DNA of 64,000 nt from Comamonadaceae bacterium 2FH (GTDB lineage Bacteria > Pseudomonadota > Gammaproteobacteria > Burkholderiales > Burkholderiaceae_C). Positions 21,443 to 34,120 of this stretch are shown here, piece by piece. The DNA lies in contig SCMQ01000017.1 of NCBI GenBank assembly GCA_005503335.1, positions 1 through 64,000 of the forward strand, given 5' to 3'. The first letter of the stretch is position 1. The number at the start of each line of letters is the position of its first letter. The notes below the pieces were generated by a model that did not search any database, was not told where the DNA came from, and was given only the letters and a program-made list of their open reading frames with translations. A program made the position numbers and the translations under genes.

Positions 21443-23707
21443 TCAACCCGTGGGCAGGGCGCGCGCCGCGCGCAGCACCGAGGGGGTGCGCCGCAGGTTG
21501 CGCAGCACCTGGTCGAGGTGGATGCGGTCGCGCACCGCGATCACGAAGCGCAGGTCGGCGGCGTCCTGGTTGGACTCGTCGTTCATGTCCACATGCACGA
21601 TGTCGGCCTCGGCCGAGGCCAGCGCCGCCGCCACGCGGGCCAGCACGCCCTTGCCATTGGCCACGGTGATGACCACGCCGGTCTCGAAGGGGCGGACCGG
21701 CTCGTCGGCCCATTCCACCGTGATGAAGCGCTCGCTGTCCTTGTTCTGCAGCTTGCGCGCCACCGCGCAGCCGTCGGCATGCACCACCAGGCCTTCGCCG
21801 CGGCCCAGGTAGCCGACGATGGCCTCGCCGGGCACCGGGCGGCAGCAGCTCGCGTACTTGACCGAGGCGTTCTCGCTGCCGTCCAGCGTGACGGCGCCCT
21901 GCGACACGGTCTCGTGCGCCATGTAGCGCTCGCGCGTCATCAGCAGGGCGTCGGGCTTCTCGCCGCTTTCCGACAGCAGGGTCATCAGCCGCTTGGCCAC
22001 GATGCTGGCGATGCGCTTGCCCAGGCCAATGTCGGTCAGCAGCTCGGCGCGGCTCTTGCTGCCGGTGAAGCGCAGCAGCTTGTCCCAGATCGGCTGGTAG
22101 GCCGGCTCGTCGTCGGGCAGCTTTTCCATGCCTTCGGCGCGCAGGGCCTGGGTCAGCAGCTTTTCGCCGAGCTCCTGCGATTCGGTCTGGGCCAGGGTCT
22201 TGAGGTGATGGCGGATCTTGGAGCGCGCCCTCCCGGTGCGCACGAAGCCCAGCCAGGCCGGGTTGGGCGTGGACACCGGGGCGGTGATCACCTCCACCAC
22301 GTCGCCGTTGCGCAGCTCGGTGCGCAGCGGCACCTGCTCGCCGTTGATCTTCGCGGCCACCGTGCGGTCGCCGATGTTGCTGTGGATCGCGTAGGCGAAG
22401 TCCACCACCGTGGCGCCGCGCGGCAGGGCCATGATCTGGCTCTTTGGGGTGAACACGTAGACCGCGTCGGGGAACAGGTCGACCTTGACATGGTCCCAGA
22501 ACTCGGCGGCGTCGCGCGTCTCGTTCTGGATGTCGAGCAGCGACTGCAGCCATTTGGCGCCCAGCCGGTCGGCGTTGGCGCTGTGCGGGTCGTCGGCCTT
22601 GTAGAGCCAGTGCGCGGCCACGCCCGACTCGGCCACCACGTGCATGGCCTCGGTGCGCATCTGGAACTCGACGTTCACGCCGGCCGGCCCCACCAGCGTG
22701 GTGTGCAGCGACTGGTAGCCGTTGAGCTTGGCGATCGCGATGTGGTCCTTGAACCTGCCCGGCACCGGCTTGTAGAGCTGGTGCAGCACGCCCAGCGCCG
22801 TGTAGCACTCGACCACCTGGGGCACGATGACGCGAAAGCCGTACATGTCCGTGACCTGGGCGAAGCTCAGGTGCTTCTCGTCCATCTTGCGGTAGATCGA
22901 GTAGAGCGTCTTCTCGCGCCCGGCGATGCGCACCTTCATGCCGGCGGCGGCAAAGGCGGCCTCGACCTCGCGCTGCACCTTCTGGATCAGGTCGCGCCGG
23001 CGATTGCGCGCACGCTCCACCGCCTTGGCCAGCACCCCGTAGCGCCAGGGGCGCAGGTGGCGGAACGAGAGGTCCTGCAGCTCGCGGTAGATCTGGTTCA
23101 GGCCCAGCCGGTGCGCGATCGGCGCGTAGATCTCCAGCGTCTCGGCCGAGATGCGCGCCCATTTGCTGCGCGGCATGTCCGACAGCGTGCGCATGTTGTG
23201 CGTGCGATCGGCCAGCTTGATCAGGATCACGCGCACGTCGCGCGCCATCGCGAGCAGCATCTTGCGGAAGGACTCGGCCTGGCTTTCCTCGCGCGTGTTG
23301 AACTGCAGCTTGTCGAGCTTGGTGAGGCCGTCGACCAGCTCGGCCACCGGGGCGCCGAAGCGTTCGATCAGCTCGGCCTTGGTGACGCCGCAGTCCTCGA
23401 TCGCGTCGTGCAGCAGCGCGGCCATCAGGGCCTGGGCGTCGAGCTTCCACTCGGTGCACTGCACGGCCACGGCGATCGGGTGGGTGATGTAGGGCTCGCC
23501 GCTGTGGCGCAGCTGGCCCAGGTGGGCCTCGTCGGCGAAGCGGTAGGCGCGCCGCACCTGCTCGATGTCGGCAGCGTCCAGGTAGCCGAGGCGGTCTGTC
23601 AGCGCGGCGAAGCTGGCCGCCGCCGCGTTGGCCGCCGCGGCCGGGCTGGCGCTGGGCGCGCGGCTGCCGGCGGCAGGGCTTGACAGGGGAGGGATCACCG
23701 CGCTCAT
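21443..23707 (-). CDS. spoT: Bifunctional (p)ppGpp synthetase/hydrolase SpoT
   Basis: A 754-residue RelA/SpoT homologue. The order is a hydrolase HD domain (HD at 100-101 and ED at 104-105, intact), a synthetase domain (RFKDHIAIAKLNGYQSLHTT), a TGS domain (VYVFTPKSQIMALPRGATVVDFAYAIH), a helical region, a Zn-finger-like CCRPVPGE segment and a C-terminal ACT domain. The RFKD motif and intact HD residues indicate a bifunctional long RSH rather than a synthetase-only RelA. It makes and degrades the stringent-response alarmone. The ATG at 23707 (MSAVIPP) is chosen; an in-frame start at 23749 would run into the rpoZ terminator stem. It lies in the conserved yicC-gmk-rpoZ-spoT block, here split by an island. 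Confidence 0.93.
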   Translation of the reverse strand: MSAVIPPLSSPAAGSRAPSASPAAAANAAAASFAALTDRLGYLDAADIEQVRRAYRFADEAHLGQLRHSGEPYITHPIAVAVQCTEWKLDAQALMAALLHDAIEDCGVTKAELIERFGAPVAELVDGLTKLDKLQFNTREESQAESFRKMLLAMARDVRVILIKLADRTHNMRTLSDMPRSKWARISAETLEIYAPIAHRLGLNQIYRELQDLSFRHLRPWRYGVLAKAVERARNRRRDLIQKVQREVEAAFAAAGMKVRIAGREKTLYSIYRKMDEKHLSFAQVTDMYGFRVIVPQVVECYTALGVLHQLYKPVPGRFKDHIAIAKLNGYQSLHTTLVGPAGVNVEFQMRTEAMHVVAESGVAAHWLYKADDPHSANADRLGAKWLQSLLDIQNETRDAAEFWDHVKVDLFPDAVYVFTPKSQIMALPRGATVVDFAYAIHSNIGDRTVAAKINGEQVPLRTELRNGDVVEVITAPVSTPNPAWLGFVRTGRARSKIRHHLKTLAQTESQELGEKLLTQALRAEGMEKLPDDEPAYQPIWDKLLRFTGSKSRAELLTDIGLGKRIASIVAKRLMTLLSESGEKPDALLMTRERYMAHETVSQGAVTLDGSENASVKYASCCRPVPGEAIVGYLGRGEGLVVHADGCAVARKLQNKDSERFITVEWADEPVRPFETGVVITVANGKGVLARVAAALASAEADIVHVDMNDESNQDAADLRFVIAVRDRIHLDQVLRNLRRTPSVLRAARALPTG

Positions 23708-23746
23708 CCCGTAAATGTAGCGCGGACGGCGGCGGGGCGCCTTGGG

Positions 23747-23775
23747 CAAGAAAAAAGCACCGCGCGCGGTGCTTT
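23747..23775 (-). terminator. Intrinsic terminator after rpoZ
   Basis: A perfect 22-nt palindrome, AAAGCACCGCG/CGCGGTGCTTT at 23754-23775, is followed on the minus strand by a T-tract (six T in a row counting the stem end, then C and TT). It stands between rpoZ and spoT, so spoT needs its own promoter or depends on read-through. Confidence 0.75.
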
Positions 23776-24781: not shown

Positions 24782-24969
24782 GAAGTCCTGGGCTGGTGTG
24801 AGTCGCCATGAGGCGATTGCGTGCGATGCAATTTCAACGTAGCTACGGGTCGTCATATTATCAGTCGGGTGTTTGTGATCGCGTTGCGAGCCCGTGGAAC
24901 CACGCAATTGCGTCGACCAGAAGAAGAATCAATGGATGGCAATGCGCCGGTGTGTCAGACTCGTCGTCC

Positions 24970-27390
24970 ATGACCGACGACGACTTCCCGTACAGCCGCT
25001 CGCTTGCCCCATTGGAATCGCTGCTCGCGGGCGTGAAGCGGCCAGGTGACTTCTGCGTGCACGGGGCTCTGGCCTTGCCGATGCCGATGATCCAGGTGGA
25101 CGGCGTCGGCATGCTGTCATTCCCGCTTCCCCAAGCCCAGATCGCGGCGCTGGTCGATGCCGCCGAGCGCGCACCCTACGGGCGGGGCGAACGGACCGTG
25201 GTCGACACATCGGTGCGCCGGGTCTGGCAGATCGACGCGGCGCGGGTGCGGATCAGCGGCAAGAGCTGGGCGCAATCGCTGGGCCGGATCCTCGCCGAGA
25301 CCGGGCGCGGGCTCGGCTGCGAAGACGCGGCGATTCGGGCCGAGTTGTACAAGCTGTTGGTCTACGACCCGGGCGGCTTCTTTCTGGCGCACCGCGACGG
25401 CGAGAAGGCGCCCGGCATGTTCGGCACGCTGCTGCTGCAGCTGCCGTCGCCGCATGCGGGCGGCGAGCTGCGCATCCGCCACGGCAGCCGCGAAACGCGC
25501 ATCGACCTGTCGGCCACCGACTTCTCCGAACTCGGCTTCGCCGCCTTCTATGCCGATTGCGAACACGAGGTGCGGCCGGTCGAATCCGGGCACCGGGTCT
25601 GCCTGGTCTTCAACCTGGTGCGCGGCGCCGCGCGCAAAACACCCCCGGCTCGTGCGCCGAGCTACGAAGCCGAGGTTGCGCAGGCGGCACGGCTGATTGG
25701 CGCGGCCTTCGCCGCCGAGGGTGCACCGTGCAAGCTGGCCTGGCTGCTGGCGCACCAGTACAGCCAGGCGGAGCTGGGCTTCGGCGCGCTCAAGGGGGTC
25801 GATGCGGCGGTGGCCGGGGTGCTGTGTCGGGCGGCGGATGCGGCGGCGTGCTGTGCGCATCTGGGTGTGGTCCACATCGAGGAGTCCGGGCCGGCGCAGG
25901 TGAACTACGCGCCGAGCCGGGGCCGCGGCTATCACGACGACTTCGACGACGAGATCGATGCCGCGGGGGTCGATTACGAGGTCGTCGAAATCTCCGACAC
26001 CGCCCGGTACATCGATCACTGGGTCGCGGCCGGCGACCAGAGGCCCGCGCTCGGCCGGTTGCCGCTGGGGCACGGCGAGCTGCTGCCCGCGGGCGCGCTG
26101 GACGACGAACCGCCGGACGAGGACCGCCTGCTGGAGTCCACCGGCAACGAAGGGGTGAGCTTCGAGCGCGCCTACCGGCGCGCCGCGCTGATCCTGTGGC
26201 CGCGGGCGCGGCAGGTCGAGGTGCTGCTGCAAGCCGGTGTGGATGCGGCCCTGCCCCTGCTTGAGGAGGTGCTCGCGGCCGAGGGTGTGAGCGCCGGTGC
26301 GCCGGCGCTGGATCTGGCCGAGCGCATCGTGGCCCATTGGTCGCGGCAAAGCACCCCGCGCTACGCCGCCGGGCGGGAAGGGCCGCTGCGTGTCCGCATG
26401 CTGCGCTGCCTGGCCCGGTTGGGCACGACGGCGCCGGGCGAACGTTTCCTGCGCGAGGTCGTGGTCGCCGACTACGACGGCAGTGAGAACGCCGCCCTTG
26501 CCGAGGCTGCGCCCGCCATGCTCGCGGCGCAGCCCCTCCAGGAACTGTTCGCCGCGTTGGTCGAGTCGTCGTTCCTGCGCTGCCCGCGCGCGCTGTGCGA
26601 ACTGCTGTTTCTGCTGGAGGCAGGCCACCAAGCGCAGCCCAGCCCGGTCGGCGCGTCGGCGCTGCGCCGCTTTACGGGCGCATTGGTCGACGCGCTGCCG
26701 GGGCTCGCGGCCAGACCGGCACGCAGCGACCTTGGCTGGGCGCTGCAATACGACGAAACCGCCGCCGACGCCGCTAGCTGCCACCGCCTGTTGGGGGTGC
26801 TGGAACGGCTGGCGAGCGGGGAGCAACACGCGGCAGCAGTCACCACCTTGATCGCGCACCCAAAGGTCTTCGACCCCGGTCGGATTCTGGTTCCCGCGCT
26901 GCAAGTCTTGTGCGCCGCGGAAGAGCACGGCGGGATCGAGCGCGATGCGCAGCGGTTGCGGCTGTGGGTCCAATGCTGCACATTCCTGCTCGCGCGCAGC
27001 GAAATGCCGCCGGCAGCGCCGCGCGACTGGAGCCAGCCGGCCGAGTTGGCTTGCCGTTGCGAAGATTGCCAGGCGCTGCAGGTCTTCGCGCTGCATCCGC
27101 AACTGCGCGAGCAGCGCTTTCGTGTCCGGCAGGACCGGCGCGAGCATCTGCAACGCCAGATCGCGCAGCACGGGCTGGACATGAACCACGTCACCGATCG
27201 CCGCGGTTCGCCGCAAACCCTGGTGTGCTGCAAGACGCGCGAGAGCTACCGCCGCCAGTGTCGCCAGCACACCGAGGACATTGCCGCCATGCGCGCGCTG
27301 GAGGCGCTGGCCGTCGCAGCGCCGGATGCGCAGGAACGCACTCGGCTCGCGGCAGCGGTGGCGCGCCAGCCGCAGGCGGTGGAGGGCTGA
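24970..27390 (+). CDS. 2OG-Fe(II) oxygenase-like protein with large C-terminal region and Cys cluster
   Basis: An 806-residue protein. Residues ~125-220 are a prolyl-hydroxylase-type 2-oxoglutarate/Fe(II) oxygenase core: H141-x-D143 in LAHRDGEK, H199 in CEHEV as third iron ligand, and R209 in GHRVCL as the likely 2OG anchor. The next ~450 residues are mainly helical with no family I recognise. Near residue 695 CRCEDC suggests a metal site, followed by a basic region and RRGSPQTLVCCKT; I recall similar tails in fungal oxygenase-like proteins, but that needs a search. The ATG at 24970 is used; upstream in-frame codons look non-coding. It ends five bases before the TTG start of the primase-helicase, so the two are translationally linked. 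The substrate could be protein or nucleic acid. Confidence 0.75.
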   Translation: MTDDDFPYSRSLAPLESLLAGVKRPGDFCVHGALALPMPMIQVDGVGMLSFPLPQAQIAALVDAAERAPYGRGERTVVDTSVRRVWQIDAARVRISGKSWAQSLGRILAETGRGLGCEDAAIRAELYKLLVYDPGGFFLAHRDGEKAPGMFGTLLLQLPSPHAGGELRIRHGSRETRIDLSATDFSELGFAAFYADCEHEVRPVESGHRVCLVFNLVRGAARKTPPARAPSYEAEVAQAARLIGAAFAAEGAPCKLAWLLAHQYSQAELGFGALKGVDAAVAGVLCRAADAAACCAHLGVVHIEESGPAQVNYAPSRGRGYHDDFDDEIDAAGVDYEVVEISDTARYIDHWVAAGDQRPALGRLPLGHGELLPAGALDDEPPDEDRLLESTGNEGVSFERAYRRAALILWPRARQVEVLLQAGVDAALPLLEEVLAAEGVSAGAPALDLAERIVAHWSRQSTPRYAAGREGPLRVRMLRCLARLGTTAPGERFLREVVVADYDGSENAALAEAAPAMLAAQPLQELFAALVESSFLRCPRALCELLFLLEAGHQAQPSPVGASALRRFTGALVDALPGLAARPARSDLGWALQYDETAADAASCHRLLGVLERLASGEQHAAAVTTLIAHPKVFDPGRILVPALQVLCAAEEHGGIERDAQRLRLWVQCCTFLLARSEMPPAAPRDWSQPAELACRCEDCQALQVFALHPQLREQRFRVRQDRREHLQRQIAQHGLDMNHVTDRRGSPQTLVCCKTRESYRRQCRQHTEDIAAMRALEALAVAAPDAQERTRLAAAVARQPQAVEG

Positions 27391-27397
27391 CCCCTTG
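27381..27397 (+). promoter_or_regulatory. Ribosome-binding site and TTG start of the primase-helicase
   Basis: GGAGGG (27381-27386) lies eight bases before TTG (27395-27397). The frame has no ATG between the oxygenase stop (27388-27390) and conserved primase sequence, and the frame upstream of the TTG overlaps the oxygenase gene. TTG is therefore the best start. Confidence 0.65.
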
Positions 27398-30292
27398 GCC
27401 TTAGTTGCAGCAGAAACTCAGCCTGCGCCTTCATCGCGGACCTCGCATAGTCAGCCGATCCAGGTTGACCTGGGTTCGACCGCGCGCGCGAAGGTCGCAC
27501 TGTTCCGATCGCTCTTTCGTGGCCGAGACGATCTCTATGCGCGTCGCTTCGAGAACACAACGACGGGCAAGTCCGGATACGCGCCCGCCTGCGCCAATGA
27601 ATGGGTGCGTGGCATCTGCCGCAAGCCCCAGATCAAATGCGCGGATTGCACGCATCGGCAGTTTCTCCCGCTGACCGATCAGGTCGTCTACTGGCACTTG
27701 TGCGGTCATGCGTCCGGCGAGCCACCGCATCGCGCCTTCGTCGCAGGCGTCTATCCGCTGCTCGAAGACGAGACCTGTTTTTTTCTTGCTGCCGACTTCG
27801 ACAAGGCCGGCTGGCAAGACGACGCCGCGGCGTTTGTCCAGGCCTGCCGCCGCCTGCATTTGCCCGTGGCGCTGGAGCGATCACGTTCGGGGCAGGGCGG
27901 CCACGTCTGGCTCTTCTTCGAGACTGCCCTGCCGGCGGCAATGGCGCGGCGGCTCGGGTCCCATCTATTGACTGAGGCCATGGAGGTGCGCCCCGACATC
28001 GGCCTTGATTCGTACGACCGCCTCTTTCCCAGCCAGGACACGATGCCCCGTGGCGGCTTCGGCAACCTCATCGCCTTGCCATTCCAGAAAGGGCCGCGTG
28101 AGCTGGGCAACAGCGTGTTCCTGGACGACGGCTTCATGCCGTGGGCCGACCAGTGGGCGTTTCTCGCCGGCGTGGGCAAGATCGGGCGGGCACAGGTCGA
28201 AGGCATCGTCCGCGAAGCCGAGCAACGCGGGCGCATCCTGGGCGTGCGCCTGCCCATGCAGGAGGAAGGCGAAGACGAGCCGTGGACCCTGCCTGCCTCG
28301 CGCCGGCGCAAGGAGCCGCCGCTCGCGGGCGAGCTGCCAAAGGTGCTGGAACTGGTTCTCGCCGACCAGATATACATTGCCAAGCAAGGGCTTCCCCCTG
28401 GTCTGATGAACCGCCTGATTCGCCTGGCTGCCTTTCAGAACCCCGAGTTCTACCGGGCGCAGTCCATGCGGCTTTCCACCTACGGCAAGCCGCGCCTCAT
28501 CACCTGCGCCGAGGATCATCCGCAGCACCTAGCGGTGCCGCGCGGTTGCCTGGACGATGTGCGCCGGACCTTGAAGGATCTGGGTGTGCGCGCGACGCTG
28601 CGCGACGAGCGCTGCAGCGGCCAGCCCTTGGATCTGCGCTTTCACGGTGAGCTGCGGCCTGAGCAGATGGCGGCCGCACAGGCGCTGCTGGCCCATGAGA
28701 CCGGTGTGCTCGCCGCCACGACCGCCTTCGGCAAGACCGTGGTCGCTGCCTGGCTCATCGCGCAGCGCGGCGTGAGCACGTTGGTGCTGGTGCACCGGCG
28801 GCAACTGCTCGACCAATGGGTCGAGCGGCTGTCGGCATTCCTCGGCCTGCCGGCGAGCGCGATCGGCCGCATCGGTGGCGGAAGACGACGGCCGAATGGG
28901 CGAATCGACGCCGCCCTCATTCAGAGCCTGGTCAAGAAGGGCGTGGTTGCCGACCAGGTCGCCGACTATGGGCAGCTGATCGTCGACGAGTGCCATCATT
29001 TGCCGGCACACAGCTTCGAGCAGGTGGCCCGTCGGACCAAGGCGCGGTTCGTTGTCGGGCTGTCTGCGACCGTGGAACGCAAGAACGGCCACCATCCCAT
29101 CCTCTTCATGCAGTGCGGGCCGGTGCGCCACCGTGTGAGCGCGAAGGCGCAAGCAGTGGCACGGCCGTTCGAGCACCGGGTTCTCGTGCAGCCGACTGCT
29201 TTCCAGTCGGGCAGGAGCGCCGAACCGGACGCGCGGGTCGAGTTCCAGGCGTTGTATCGGGAGTTGGTCGATGACGAGCTGCGCAACCGCCGCATCTGCG
29301 AAGACGTGGCCGAGTGCGTGCAGAGCGGCCGCTCGCCGCTCGTGCTCACGGAGCGAACAGATCATCTTGAGCGCCTCGCGCAGCAGCTGGCCGCCGATGT
29401 GCGTCATCTTGTCGTCCTGCGCGCGGGAGTGGGCAAGAAGCAGCAGCGGGCCGTTGCTGAGCAGCTCGCCGCCATTCCGCGCGATGAGGCGCGCGTCATC
29501 CTTGCCACTGGCCGGCATGTCGGAGAGGGCTTCGACGATCCGCGCCTGGATACGCTGTTTCTGACGCTTCCTGTGTCGTGGCGCGGCACCATCGCCCAGT
29601 ACGCGGGCCGGCTGCACCGTCTGTGCGAAGGCAAGCGCGAGGTGCGCGTCTATGACTACGCCGACCTCGAAGTGCAGATGCTTGCGCGGATGTTCGAGCG
29701 GCGCTGCCGCGGCTATGAGGCGCTCGGCTACGCGATCGTGCTGCCGGCGAGCGCCATTCCCGGTTGGCCGCAGGACGTGCCCCTGCCCGCTGAATCTGCA
29801 TGGAAGCGCGACTATTCAGGCAGTGTGCGCAGGCTGGTCGCGGACGGCGTGGACACGTTGCAGGCGAGCCTCTTCGTCCACGTCGCCCGGCCACTGGCGT
29901 CCGACGCCGAGGGCGCGGACCGGGCGCGCAGCGCGACCGAAGCCTTCCTGTACCGCCGCCTGGAGACCTTGCCGCAAACGCGGGGACGCTTCCGGCTCAA
30001 CGCCGTGCTGCCGATTGCTTTCGATGGCCTGGGGCAACTGGAAGTCGATCTCCTGTGCGACGACACTCCCGACACCCGAATCGCCGTGGAACTCGACGGC
30101 GACCAGCATCTTGCCGATCCGGCCGCCTACCGCCGCGACCGCCGCAAGGACCTGCTGTTGCAAGAAAACGGCTACCTCGTGCTGCGCTTTCTTGCCCAGG
30201 ACGTGGGCAAGGAGCTGGACCGGGTGCTGGACACCATTCTGAGAGCGCTCGCTCGGGGGGCCAGACTCCGGTCAACCAGCGGCACGAGCTGA
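27395..30292 (+). CDS. TOTE-type AEP primase, SF2 helicase and nuclease fusion protein
   Basis: A 965-residue protein. Residues ~30-260 resemble the archaeo-eukaryotic primase domain of TOTE conflict systems: KVALFRSLFRGRDDLYARR, a four-Cys cluster (C66, C75, C82, C85), catalytic-type DFD in LAADFDK (134-136) and SGQGGHVWLFFE (165-176). Residues ~415-800 are an SF2 helicase with TTAFGKT as Walker A (442-448), DECHH (531-535), LSAT (556-559) and a C-terminal lobe (AGRLHRLCEGK). Residues ~895-937 look like a DUF559/Vsr-type nuclease fold (ELDGDQH, then RRDRRKDLL). It should bind nucleic acid, use ATP and perhaps synthesise and cut nucleic acid. It pairs with the oxygenase-like gene. Domain identity is from memory of the families. 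Confidence 0.82.
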   Translation: MALVAAETQPAPSSRTSHSQPIQVDLGSTARAKVALFRSLFRGRDDLYARRFENTTTGKSGYAPACANEWVRGICRKPQIKCADCTHRQFLPLTDQVVYWHLCGHASGEPPHRAFVAGVYPLLEDETCFFLAADFDKAGWQDDAAAFVQACRRLHLPVALERSRSGQGGHVWLFFETALPAAMARRLGSHLLTEAMEVRPDIGLDSYDRLFPSQDTMPRGGFGNLIALPFQKGPRELGNSVFLDDGFMPWADQWAFLAGVGKIGRAQVEGIVREAEQRGRILGVRLPMQEEGEDEPWTLPASRRRKEPPLAGELPKVLELVLADQIYIAKQGLPPGLMNRLIRLAAFQNPEFYRAQSMRLSTYGKPRLITCAEDHPQHLAVPRGCLDDVRRTLKDLGVRATLRDERCSGQPLDLRFHGELRPEQMAAAQALLAHETGVLAATTAFGKTVVAAWLIAQRGVSTLVLVHRRQLLDQWVERLSAFLGLPASAIGRIGGGRRRPNGRIDAALIQSLVKKGVVADQVADYGQLIVDECHHLPAHSFEQVARRTKARFVVGLSATVERKNGHHPILFMQCGPVRHRVSAKAQAVARPFEHRVLVQPTAFQSGRSAEPDARVEFQALYRELVDDELRNRRICEDVAECVQSGRSPLVLTERTDHLERLAQQLAADVRHLVVLRAGVGKKQQRAVAEQLAAIPRDEARVILATGRHVGEGFDDPRLDTLFLTLPVSWRGTIAQYAGRLHRLCEGKREVRVYDYADLEVQMLARMFERRCRGYEALGYAIVLPASAIPGWPQDVPLPAESAWKRDYSGSVRRLVADGVDTLQASLFVHVARPLASDAEGADRARSATEAFLYRRLETLPQTRGRFRLNAVLPIAFDGLGQLEVDLLCDDTPDTRIAVELDGDQHLADPAAYRRDRRKDLLLQENGYLVLRFLAQDVGKELDRVLDTILRALARGARLRSTSGTS

Positions 30293-30320
30293 CCGCGAAT
30301 CGGCGAGGAGGTCGCCGATG

Positions 30321-31679
30321 TCATTCCTGCGTTGCCTTGAAGTAGCGCCGCTTTGGGTCCTGTGGGCTGGAGCCGATCTCGCGGACCAGCCCACGCTCCA
30401 CCAAGCTGGCAAGGCGTGTGCGTGCTGCGCGTGGAGTGCGTGCGATCCGCTCCGCGATCTCGTTGGTGGACAGTCCGCCGCCGTCCGAGAGTGCATCGAG
30501 GATCGCCTGATTGATGCCGTCCGGCGGCGGTGCCTGCCCCCGTGTGGTATGGAGCGTGACCCGGAAGCGGGTGCCGATCTCTTCCAGAGCGGGTGCCGGC
30601 AAGCCGGCGTCCCGGCAGGCCGCGCTCATGCGCTGGATGCCGCTGCCCCATTGTTCGATCAGGCCGAGTTCCTGGAAAACGCGGCCCATGACGCGGTTGC
30701 GCAACTTGGAGACGCCCCGCCGCAAGTCTTCCACCGTCAGGCCAGGCGGCAGCAGGCCGGGGTTCTCGATCTCCACGCGATCGTCGAAGATGGCCACCCG
30801 GATCGGCGCGCCGCGCTGCGCATAGTCCGCGTGCACCACGGAGTTGACGATGGCCTCGCGCAGTGCCACGGGCGGCAGGCTCCAGGTGTCCGTGCGGCGC
30901 ACTGCGCCGATATCGAAGCCATGCAGGCCATGTTTTCGCACAAACTCGATGGCGGCCTGAATGACCTTGGGCAACGGGCCGTGCAGCGCAGCCGAATCGA
31001 CGATGCGCGTCTTGTCAGTGCCGGCAAATCGCCCCGCCTGGATCCAGGCGTCGGGAAAGTGGGCTTGTGTTTCGTGCCCGAACAGCAGAACGCCACCGAC
31101 GGAGGGAACCTTGCGACCCTGGTGCGGCACCAGCAGGCGCAGCGTCTCCAGGTCGGCCTTCTTCAGCTTGCGCACCGGCGCGAAGCACTCTGAAGCGGCT
31201 CTGAAGTCCAGCGCTTCAGAGTCGAGACCCGGCATGGCCTGCTCGTCGAACGACTTGCCCAGGCTCGCCCGTCGCAACTCGGCCACCAGCTCATCGTCAG
31301 CGCGCCGGTTGGTGGAACCGACCCGGACGTAGACACCAGCCTCGATGCCGGCCGCCTTGAGATAGTGGGGCCGGCCGGGGCTGGGATACACCTGTACGGC
31401 AAGCACGTTCGTGCTGCGCCAGGGCAGAACTTCAATATCCGGCACCAGGCGCGGCGCGATGCCGTCGGTGAGCACGCTCGCGAGACGCTCCTCCAGCGAC
31501 AGCGGATCGGCAATGCCGCGCACATGGCGCGTGCCGTCCTCGACGCCGATCAGGACTATGCCGCCCGCCGTGTTGGCGAAGGCCACAACGGTGCGCAGCA
31601 CACCCGCCGCCGACGAGAGATCACGCTTGAATTCGAGCGTCTTGCCCTCGGGCCGCTTCAGCAACTCGGTCAAGTTCAT
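30321..31679 (-). CDS. AlbA_2/Schlafen-type ATP-binding putative transcriptional regulator
   Basis: A 452-residue protein. Residues ~8-125 are an AlbA_2 (Schlafen-like) domain (EGKTLEFKRDLS, NTAGGIVLIGVEDG, GVYVRVGSTNRRA). Residues ~250-385 are a GHKL-type ATP-binding domain (LREAIVNSVVHADY, EIENPGLLPPGL). Residues ~400-450 are a winged helix (LSTNEIAERIARTPRAARTRL). Such proteins are usually annotated as DNA-binding regulators. It converges on the primase-helicase gene with 28 bases between stops. Three 9-bp RCTCTGAAG elements flank its start codon and three more lie inside its coding sequence, which suggests autoregulation, perhaps with looping. It may silence or trigger the conflict module; that is inference. 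Confidence 0.85.
   Translation of the reverse strand: MNLTELLKRPEGKTLEFKRDLSSAAGVLRTVVAFANTAGGIVLIGVEDGTRHVRGIADPLSLEERLASVLTDGIAPRLVPDIEVLPWRSTNVLAVQVYPSPGRPHYLKAAGIEAGVYVRVGSTNRRADDELVAELRRASLGKSFDEQAMPGLDSEALDFRAASECFAPVRKLKKADLETLRLLVPHQGRKVPSVGGVLLFGHETQAHFPDAWIQAGRFAGTDKTRIVDSAALHGPLPKVIQAAIEFVRKHGLHGFDIGAVRRTDTWSLPPVALREAIVNSVVHADYAQRGAPIRVAIFDDRVEIENPGLLPPGLTVEDLRRGVSKLRNRVMGRVFQELGLIEQWGSGIQRMSAACRDAGLPAPALEEIGTRFRVTLHTTRGQAPPPDGINQAILDALSDGGGLSTNEIAERIARTPRAARTRLASLVERGLVREIGSSPQDPKRRYFKATQE
31187..31222. promoter_or_regulatory. Intragenic triplet of the RCTCTGAAG element
   Basis: ACTCTGAAG (31187-31195), GCTCTGAAG (31198-31206) and the inverse CTTCAGAGT (31214-31222). The layout is direct, direct, inverted, as in the start-codon cluster ~500 bases away. 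They lie in the AlbA_2 gene and encode DSE, FRA and SE codons. Confidence 0.6.
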
Positions 31680-31680
31680 A

Positions 31681-31727
31681 GCTCTGAAGTGTACTCTGAA
31701 GCCCGTTTGCCAGTGGTACTTCAGAGT
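31681..31727. promoter_or_regulatory. Operator triplet at the start of the AlbA_2 regulator gene
   Basis: GCTCTGAAG (31681-31689), ACTCTGAAG (31693-31701) and the inverse CTTCAGAGT (31719-31727). The first lies one base upstream of the start codon, so bound protein would cover the ribosome site. TACACT on the minus strand (31688-31693) could be a -10, but no clear -35 is seen. Confidence 0.65.
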
Positions 31728-32103: not shown

Positions 32104-33021
32104 TTACTCTATGTTCTGCACCTGTTCGCGCATCTGCTCGATCAGCACCTTCATGTCGACCGAGATGCGGGTCAGCTCCAGCGCGGCCGACTTCGAGCCC
32201 AGGGTGTTGGCCTCGCGATGCAGCTCCTGGATCAGGAAATCCAGGCGCTTGCCGATCTCGCCGCCCTTCTTGATCAAACGCTCGATCTCGTCGAGGTGGG
32301 AGGCCAGGCGGGTGAGCTCCTCGGCCACGTCGATGCGGATCGCGAAGGCGGTGGCCTCGCTCAGGGCGCGCTCCTGGGCGGCCTCGGGCGCCGTGCCGCC
32401 CTCGCCCAGGGCCAGAGCCTCGGTCCAGCGCTCCAGGAAACGGCTGCGCTGCTGCGCCACCAGCTGCGGCACCAGGGGCTGGGCCTGCCCGGCCAGGCTG
32501 CGCAGCTGGGCCAGGCGGTCCAGCAGCATGGCGGCCAGGCGCGCGCCCTCGCGCTCGCGTGCCTGGCGCAGCGCCGCGACGGCCTCGGCCGCCAGCGGCA
32601 GCAGGGCCGGCTCGAGCTCGGCCGCGCCGGGCTGGTCGCTGGCGCCCAGGCGCAGCACGTCGGCCACGCTGAGCGGGCGGGCCTCGGGCAGCCAGGCACG
32701 CACGCTGTCCTGCAGGGCGCCCAGGCGCTGCAGCAGGCGCAGCGAAGGCTCGGCCAGCTGGCCGGCGTCGCCGCTGTCGACCGAGGCGCGCAGCTCGACC
32801 TTGCCGCGCTTGAGCTGCTGGGTCAGCAGCTCGCGCAGGGCGGGTTCCTGCTGGCGCAATTCGTCGGGCAGGCGCAGCGTGAGGTCCAGGAAGCGGCTGT
32901 TGACGGCGCGGATTTCCAGGCCAAGGCGGCTGCCCTGCGCGGGCCGCGCCCCGCCCTCGCCACTGCTGCCGGAGGCGCTGTGCTGGACGCTGGCGTAGCC
33001 GGTCATGCTGTAAACTGCCAT
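32104..33021 (-). CDS. yicC: YicC-family endoribonuclease-like protein
   Basis: A 305-residue YicC family protein with family landmarks MTGYAS at the start, AVNSRFLDLTLRLP (residues ~40-55), RGKVEL, and the C-terminal run RIDVAEELTRLASHLDE, GKRLDFLIQEL and REANTLGSK. The E. coli homologue has been described as an endoribonuclease acting on a small RNA. The ATG at 33021 follows AGGAAACC. The last six codons coincide with the island att core, so the 3' end was supplied by the island, yet the protein looks complete. In relatives it precedes gmk directly; here it is cut off from gmk by ~7.4 kb. It is divergent from the kinase gene at 33113. Confidence 0.92.
   Translation of the reverse strand: MAVYSMTGYASVQHSASGSSGEGGARPAQGSRLGLEIRAVNSRFLDLTLRLPDELRQQEPALRELLTQQLKRGKVELRASVDSGDAGQLAEPSLRLLQRLGALQDSVRAWLPEARPLSVADVLRLGASDQPGAAELEPALLPLAAEAVAALRQAREREGARLAAMLLDRLAQLRSLAGQAQPLVPQLVAQQRSRFLERWTEALALGEGGTAPEAAQERALSEATAFAIRIDVAEELTRLASHLDEIERLIKKGGEIGKRLDFLIQELHREANTLGSKSAALELTRISVDMKVLIEQMREQVQNIE
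32111..32124. other. attR core within the yicC 3' end
   Basis: ATGTTCTGCACCTG encodes the last residues (QVQNI) of the present yicC on the minus strand. It is the partner of the core at 24685-24698. The 128 bases to its left, up to the 19-bp repeat, are AT-richer and hold no gene. Confidence 0.75.
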
Positions 33022-33112
33022 GGAGGTTTCCTGCTGTTGCTTGACTGTGGAAGAAGGACCGGATCGATGACGGGGATCAGGCAGGCGGCCCACGCTGAAT
33101 CCATCCCAAATT

Positions 33113-34120
33113 ATGTCAAAGGTCAAACCCGCCCCCTTGCCGCCCGACACCGTGATCGGCGGCTACCGTGTGGTACGCAAGCTGTCTGCGGGCGGTTTCG
33201 GGGTGGTCTACCTGGCCGTTGACGACCAGGGCCAGCAGGTCGCGATCAAGGAATACCTGCCGGCCTCGCTGGCCGCGCGCGTGCCGGGCGAGCTATGCCC
33301 CAAGGTGGCGACCGAGAAGCTGTCGCTCTACCGCCTGGGGCTCAAGAGCTTCTTCGAGGAGGGCCGTTCGCTGGCCCAGATCTCGCACCCCTCGGTGGTC
33401 AGCGTGCTCAATTTCTTCCGCGAGAACGAGACCGTCTACATGGTCATGAACTACCTGGAGGGTGCGACCCTGCAGGACTTCATCATCACCGCGCGCGACC
33501 TCAAGCGCGAGAAGGTGTTCCGCGAATCCACGATACGCTCGCTGTTCGACGAGATCCTGCGCGGCCTGCGCATCGTGCACCAGCACAAGATGCTTCACCT
33601 GGACATCAAGCCGGCCAACGTGTTCATCACCGAAGACAACAAGGCCGTGATGATCGACTTCGGCGCCGCGCGCGAGGTGCTGAACAAGGAGGGCAACTTC
33701 ATCCGCCCGATGTACACGCCCGGCTTCGCGGCGCCCGAGATGTACCGCCGCGACTCGTCGATGGGCCCCTGGACCGACATCTACGCCATCGGCTCCTGCA
33801 TCTATGCCTGCATGCAGGGCTTCCCGCCCAACGACGCGCCGCAGCGCCTGGAGAAGGACCGGCTCTCGCTGGCACTGTCGCGCCTGCGCGGTGTCTACTC
33901 GGACAACCTGATCGAGGTGGTCGAGTGGTGCATGTCGCTAGACCCCCTGTCGCGCCCGCAATCCGTGTTCGCGCTGCAAAAGGAGCTGGGCAACGAGGGC
34001 GAGCGCAGCTACACCAAGCTCAGCGTGTCGGAGAAGGTCAAGCTGCAGTTCGACAACCTGGTCACCGAGACGCGCAAGAACGTGGGCCGCTCGATCTCCC
34101 GCGAGACCAAGCTCAAATGA
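33113..34120 (+). CDS. Serine/threonine protein kinase (Hanks type)
   Basis: A 335-residue soluble kinase. It has a Gly loop (LSAGGFGVVYLA, residues 24-35), invariant Lys in VAIKEYLP (K46), catalytic loop HLDIKPANV (HLD in place of HRD), the metal Asp in MIDFGAARE, the APE-like APEM, and an Arg late in the domain (LSRP). There is no transmembrane segment or extracellular sensor, unlike many bacterial PknB kinases. The gene overlaps the PP2C phosphatase gene as ATGA (34117-34120), so kinase and phosphatase form a pair that can reversibly phosphorylate shared targets. No Shine-Dalgarno is obvious before the ATG. Targets are unknown. Confidence 0.9.
   Translation: MSKVKPAPLPPDTVIGGYRVVRKLSAGGFGVVYLAVDDQGQQVAIKEYLPASLAARVPGELCPKVATEKLSLYRLGLKSFFEEGRSLAQISHPSVVSVLNFFRENETVYMVMNYLEGATLQDFIITARDLKREKVFRESTIRSLFDEILRGLRIVHQHKMLHLDIKPANVFITEDNKAVMIDFGAAREVLNKEGNFIRPMYTPGFAAPEMYRRDSSMGPWTDIYAIGSCIYACMQGFPPNDAPQRLEKDRLSLALSRLRGVYSDNLIEVVEWCMSLDPLSRPQSVFALQKELGNEGERSYTKLSVSEKVKLQFDNLVTETRKNVGRSISRETKLK

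Follow-up and report, generated by a model that had tools for sequence, protein, structure and literature searches.

The lac repressor also acts at an auxiliary operator, O2, which lies within lacZ some 400 bp downstream of the main site, and a single repressor oligomer bridges the two. Escherichia coli PurR controls its own gene through two operators that lie beyond the purR promoter, one of them in the coding region, and the CI repressor of phage lambda binds triplets of sites at OR and OL, which are looped by a CI octamer. The locus described here resembles each of these systems in part. As with lac O2, an operator would lie within coding sequence, downstream of the main operator; however, O2 sits in a target gene rather than in the regulator's own, the protein families are unrelated, and the lac site is not known to govern the choice of amino acids across phyla. 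The likeness to PurR is that of a regulator with sites in and near its own gene, one of them intragenic, whereas PurR is a LacI-family protein with many other targets and single palindromes in place of the half-site triplets found here. With lambda CI, whose looping and self-regulation have been described (PMC3708714), the locus shares two three-site clusters for one autoregulating repressor, but the second CI cluster is outside cI, 2.3 kb away and at another promoter, and has no dual coding role. Intragenic operators are already known; the putative one described here is kept, in many phyla, within the gene that encodes the regulator itself.

The features of the locus are collected in Table 1; the window is the whole stretch of DNA analysed, 64 kb in length. 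Pfam assigns to the regulator an SLFN_AlbA_2 domain (aa 11–127; PF04326, 79.4 bits vs a gathering cutoff of 25.3), a HATPase_c_4 domain (aa 290–376; PF13749, 100.3 bits vs 26) and a C-terminal winged helix (aa 387–434; PF13412, 29.0 bits vs 21.9). Its AlphaFold model (pLDDT 89) matches 3lmm, 2kyy and the Schlafen core, with weaker matches to GHKL-like kinases and to a MarR-like winged helix. By Pfam and fold, the AlbA_2 and HATPase_c_4 domains are held in common with COG2865-type proteins (structures 3lmm and 2kyy), for which the open literature searched describes no operator or regulatory role. A search of open papers on AlbA_2/HATPase_c_4 proteins gave no operator or autoregulation, which is weak evidence of novelty. 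The present analysis provides this uncharacterised, widespread family (AlbA_2, HATPase and winged helix) with a candidate operator, promoter and set of DNA-binding residues. Three acidic residues of the AlbA_2 domain are kept among the homologues: E11 (90/91), E16 (91/91) and D48 (86/93). The RNase SLFN13 has residues E205 and E210 and a third residue, D248 (PMC5862951), and E11 and E16 share the E-x4-E spacing of the SLFN13 pair (PMC5862951); the domain is possibly an RNase.

Table 1. Regulator gene, predicted promoter element and 8-mer sites in the window
Feature	Position	Strand	Site start from ATG (gene orientation)	Basis or context
Regulator gene, 452 aa	30321..31679	(-)		Pfam; AlphaFold model; homologues from 12 or more named phyla
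-10 element TACACT (family consensus TAnAnT)	31688..31693	(-)		Position-wise consensus of 60 homologues
Upstream site 1, CTCTGAAG in gene orientation	31719..31726	(-)	-47	Just 5' of the -35 position
Upstream site 2, CTTCAGAG in gene orientation	31694..31701	(-); 8-mer on +	-22	Abuts the -10
Upstream site 3, CTTCAGAG in gene orientation	31682..31689	(-); 8-mer on +	-10	Over the presumed start point
Inner site 1, CTCTGAAG	31214..31221	(-)	+458	Codons Ser154-Glu155
Inner site 2, CTTCAGAG	31199..31206	(-); 8-mer on +	+473	Codons Asp158-Phe159-Arg160
Inner site 3, CTTCAGAG	31188..31195	(-); 8-mer on +	+484	Codons Ala162-Ser163-Glu164

The 8-mer CTCTGAAG occurs six times in the window, where shuffles expect 1.5, and all six copies fall in the two clusters. 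The earlier note had described these as triplets of RCTCTGAAG at 31187–31222 and 31681–31727, and an R indeed precedes the 8-mer in every copy, with the order direct, direct, inverted being the same in both clusters. Its judgement that such clustering is very unlikely by chance is borne out, as six copies within 540 bp have a Poisson probability of ~4e-18, or ~3e-14 genome-wide. The note had named an 8-mer common throughout the genome as a refutation; the 8-mer proves to be rare, with 39 copies in the whole 4.78 Mb genome (56 for a mirror-image control), and the 33 copies elsewhere form no second cluster. Inverted pairs of the form CTCNGAAG-N5-30-CTTCNGAG are found nowhere else in the source genome, and a search for the promoter-type pattern that tolerated as many as 3 mismatches gave this locus alone. 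The intervals between sites are 25 and 12 bp upstream and 15 and 11 bp in the inner cluster, the first interval differing by 10 bp, or about one helical turn.

The upstream sites are conserved in 60–71 homologues and lie over a predicted promoter. The consensus of 60 aligned upstream clusters reads A-CTC[G/T]GAAG-C-N-TTG ... CTTC[A/C]GAG-TAnAnT-TC-N-GAG-T, with the start codon next in most, and the 17 bp between its TTG and TAnAnT elements is a canonical sigma70 spacing. A generic sigma70 scan of the window returned no promoter, and the promoter call rests on this family consensus; the -35 of the window's own promoter (CCACTG) is weak. Since the -10 position and the 17 bp spacing put the start point at or beside the ATG, the position suggests a leaderless mRNA. 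Sites 1 and 2 bracket the core promoter in the 60-sequence consensus and site 3 overlaps the -10 and the start point, so that the main operator overlaps the promoter by position and its occupancy should exclude polymerase. Of the looping and autorepression proposed in the earlier note, autorepression is strongly implied by the position of the upstream triplet over promoter and start point, whereas looping is something that we only infer, with no clear helical phasing between the clusters.

The regulator is a lone gene of sporadic occurrence, being present in 1 of 61 related genomes, in 7 of 396 from an Acidobacteria draw and in 23 of 395 from a Gemmatimonadota draw. Homologues at 45–88% identity come from many phyla, with 12 named phyla among those that have the inner triplet, though many are on MAG contigs and some of these labels may be wrong. 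The scattered distribution fits horizontal spread of the gene. A phage- or plasmid-borne gene is not evident, since the IMG/VR search found no regulator homologue and the plasmid search two distant ones and no closer ones. Both clusters are present in most of the 80 homologue loci read, with the generalised half-site CTTC[A/C]GAG. Among 100 non-redundant genes, which are related and therefore not independent counts, both clusters are present in 61 and neither in 12; another 10 have just the upstream cluster and 6 just the inner one (several of these six sit at contig edges or carry insertions), while 11 are not testable. The upstream triplet is thus found in 61 of the 67 testable genes that have an inner one, and none of the loci L066, L071, L074–L078 and L080–L082, which are without a promoter cluster, has an inner cluster. 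Sites of the A and C types were compared between promoter and inner cluster in independent pairs, an underpowered comparison that gave two concordant, no discordant and three uninformative cases.

The inner triplet is kept as DNA. In the genes that bear the peptide, GAA stands at codon 155 in 73/73 and GAG at codon 164 in 70/70, while GAA makes up 38% of the Glu codons elsewhere in those genes; GAC158 and TTC159, in inner site 2, are each found in 71/71. Codon 160 is CGA or AGA in 66/67, a choice made for ~12% of the other Arg codons of these genes, and codon 162 is GCT in 69/71, against 9% elsewhere. Two non-motif positions interspersed among these, the third base of A156 and codon A161, vary freely. 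Own-gene codon usage gives a joint probability of log10 -160 for this freezing, a figure inflated by kinship; the difference between motif positions and their non-motif neighbours a few bases away is independent of relatedness. The proposal of a coding sequence under constraint to keep the inner cluster is therefore upheld, with synonymous sites frozen at motif bases only in the 73 peptide-bearing genes, and the suggested comparison of homologues turned up no intact peptide with a fully lost DNA motif. The motif is partly degraded in a few homologues, among them L010, L017, L042 and L043. What marks an intragenic auxiliary operator of the lac O2 or PurR type is seen here, namely a site in the coding region that matches the promoter operator and that is conserved as DNA beyond protein constraint.

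It could be argued that SEAxDFRAASE matters purely as a protein motif and that the DNA repeat is its by-product, as conservation of the peptide reaches 96% in the main set. We consider this scarcely credible. Synonymous freezing is confined to motif bases, the same 8-mer stands in the non-coding promoter, and homologues without the inner DNA motif lose the peptide while keeping comparable columns. The eight motif residues are 96% identical to consensus with the inner motif and 31% without it, whereas 150 control columns, equally conserved in the main set, are at 97% and 88%; the set without the motif comprises 11 homologues that have the promoter cluster and is partly defined by the DNA motif. 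The largest drops in conservation among 158 columns are at residues 160, 159, 154, 163 and 155. A protein-level explanation predicts that the peptide would be kept in other codons, and none of the 11 genes without an inner cluster does so. The fall from 96% to 31%, against 97% to 88% in the controls, indicates that the protein fold does not require the inner peptide. As far as sequence comparison goes, this shows that a part of the regulator is conserved for a putative DNA control site and not for the protein's sake. Amino acids that are conserved, and replaced, for a DNA site are a warning against equating peptide conservation with protein function.

Conservation of the bases could also reflect RNA. 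AlbA_2/Schlafen domains bind RNA, and site 1 is the reverse complement of sites 2 and 3, so that a hairpin of site 1 with site 2 or 3, bound by AlbA_2, might control translation or decay; a full 8-bp stem is possible in 56 of 75 genes. In the other 19 of the 75, however, the stem is broken while the half-site consensus is kept, as for DNA recognition with one loose base. Two sites would suffice for a stem, yet all three inner sites are conserved, and the promoter copies lie upstream of or over the presumed start point and would not be transcribed as a whole. A hairpin is accordingly very improbable to us.

A clade of five loci (L047, L048, L050, L058 and L061) has a variant operator. Its promoter half-site is CTTCG[C/T]AG (CTACGAAG/CTTCGTAG), and its inner sites are CTGCGAAG/CTTCGCAG; the encoded amino acids are altered to match (S to C/Y, R to A/V and E to Q). 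The inner sites of L048 read CTGCGAAG, CTTCGCAG and CTTCGCAG, turning SEAxDFRAASE into CEALDFAAASQ, and in L058 the peptide becomes YEAIDFVAASQ. The third inner site of L058 is CTTCGCAG; its promoter counterpart, CTTCGTAG (TTCGTAG), would be a stop in that frame. That the amino acids of this clade change in step with the promoter operator is a further argument against the protein-motif explanation. The recognition helix changes as well, with R420 replaced by Q and T421 by H, N or L, and in L044, where the operator is CTTCATAG, residues 420 and 421 are I and N. The helix residues thus shift with operator type in two lineages, of which the clade counts as one event and L044 as the other, and this points to the winged helix as the predicted reader of both clusters. 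The link is not one-to-one, as R420Q also occurs with unchanged operator sites, and in L033 the promoter sites are altered and the inner sites are not. The two clusters nonetheless behave as the earlier note expected of sites for one DNA-binding activity, being conserved together and showing matched changes in the variants. The locus offers a natural system for overlapping codes and for repressor–operator co-evolution.

We therefore regard the regulator as probably an autorepressor with one operator at its promoter and an auxiliary one within the gene, ~505 bp away. The triplets, their conservation, the codon freezing, the matched change of promoter, inner sites and helix, and the near-confinement to the gene are all read from the sequences themselves; from these we infer binding by the gene's own product, repression, and the way in which the inner triplet acts. 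The C-terminal winged helix would read the half-site CTTC[A/C]GAG, and protein bound at the three half-sites over the promoter (above the -35, abutting the -10 and over the leaderless start point) would exclude RNA polymerase. The second triplet, in codons 154–164 and ~505 bp downstream, would serve as an auxiliary operator for the same protein, most likely strengthening repression by a protein bridge to the promoter triplet, and hence a DNA loop. This part of the coding sequence would have a dual use, its codons following the operator and, in lineages of altered specificity, its amino acids too. Against an autorepressor with an auxiliary site, about 10 homologues keep the promoter triplet without the inner one, which is thus dispensable; the mismatch in L033, the weak promoter of the window and the unphased cluster distance count against it as well.

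How the inner triplet would act is less clear, and we give a DNA loop about an even chance. The distance between clusters ranges from ~505 to 575 bp among relatives with no clear helical phasing, notably in lineages with longer leaders, and in Gemmatimonadota relatives the offsets are 31–70 bp, with neither between-cluster distance nor helical phase kept. An argument for looping from helical phase was dropped, since the distance varies without phase. The main rival is that the inner triplet is an operator acting as a road-block to elongation, with no loop to the promoter. On the template the triplet comes after the promoter, the Gemmatimonadota offsets fit such a block, and no result here demands a loop. 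The inner arrangement, however, mirrors the promoter cluster (one inverted and two direct sites), as a shared oligomer would predict, and the extra clusters found in two loci could not replace a road-block in that position; we hold the road-block to be possible but unlikely. The first of these loci, L045, has no inner cluster; its promoter has four clusters in tandem, repeated every 166 bp, in which the sites show the inner spacing of 15 and 11 bp, and this would tie both arrangements to one protein. In the second, L042, the inner cluster is degraded and further clusters are found at -1544 and +1435. Other lineages without the inner cluster have no comparable extra clusters, and compensation for its loss by extra clusters is suggestive only. 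In L043 and L059 four half-sites stand perfectly symmetrically about the promoter (at -58, -46, -21 and -9 in L059), and this symmetry suggests that the common triplet may be three quarters of a full four-site operator.

Two further arrangements were seen at homologous loci. L042 has a full copy of the promoter-operator (1457–1521) before a neighbour gene of 441 aa with no Pfam match, which is the sole candidate for a second target gene seen. In L070 (2169–3090), the promoter-operator and gene start are repeated on either side of an insertion of ~800 bp at the start of the regulator gene, apparently a HicAB-like pair.

In the genomes scanned, full operator pairs away from the gene are rare. 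A scan of 20 other gene-bearing genomes for CTCNGAAG-N15-19-CTTCNGAGT gave matches in 15, all but one of them at the gene locus. With nearly all full operator pairs at the gene itself, a local decoy would matter if the protein were scarce, and the inner triplet might be a buffering site, one that adjusts feedback by titrating the protein and involves neither loop nor road-block. A decoy has no need of a place within the gene or of a promoter-like arrangement, and selection for one extra binding site seems too weak for such deep maintenance, so we consider this improbable. The single exception in the scan (L086 1502–1535; G062:C471:27589–27623) belongs to a prophage that shares its Acidobacteriia genome bin with L038. 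Its exact triplet is CTCTGAAG-N7-CTTCAGAG-N3-CTTCAGAG, with inner-type spacing and of that genome's own operator type; the surrounding genes are phage genes by PHROGs, and the regulator gene is not nearby. Two IMG/VR phage contigs also have triplets (L114 7759–7804 and L138 12045–12078), of promoter type and inner type, inside ORFs of or beside lysis genes (the endolysin region), and the stretches fetched contain no regulator homologue. Mirrored control patterns gave zero matches in the phage scans, where a rough chance expectation, from an assumed collection size, is ~0.15 matches. The phage triplets are a lead rather than a result. One reading of them, which we consider doubtful, is that a self-silenced Schlafen-type gene takes part in host–phage conflict, phages having taken up the triplet and the protein sequence of the regulator following the operator; drift in specificity would then change the promoter site, the recognition helix and the inner peptide together.

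Assignment of the AlbA_2 protein to a defence system was dropped, its PADLOC match being weak and through Argonaute-associated models. The neighbours of the regulator within 24808–31679 are a 2OG-Fe(II) oxygenase gene and a gene for a TOTE conflict-system primase-helicase-nuclease (27281–30292), and this group, flanked by a spoT/relA-like gene (21443–23749) and yicC (32104–33150), resembles an inserted defence island.
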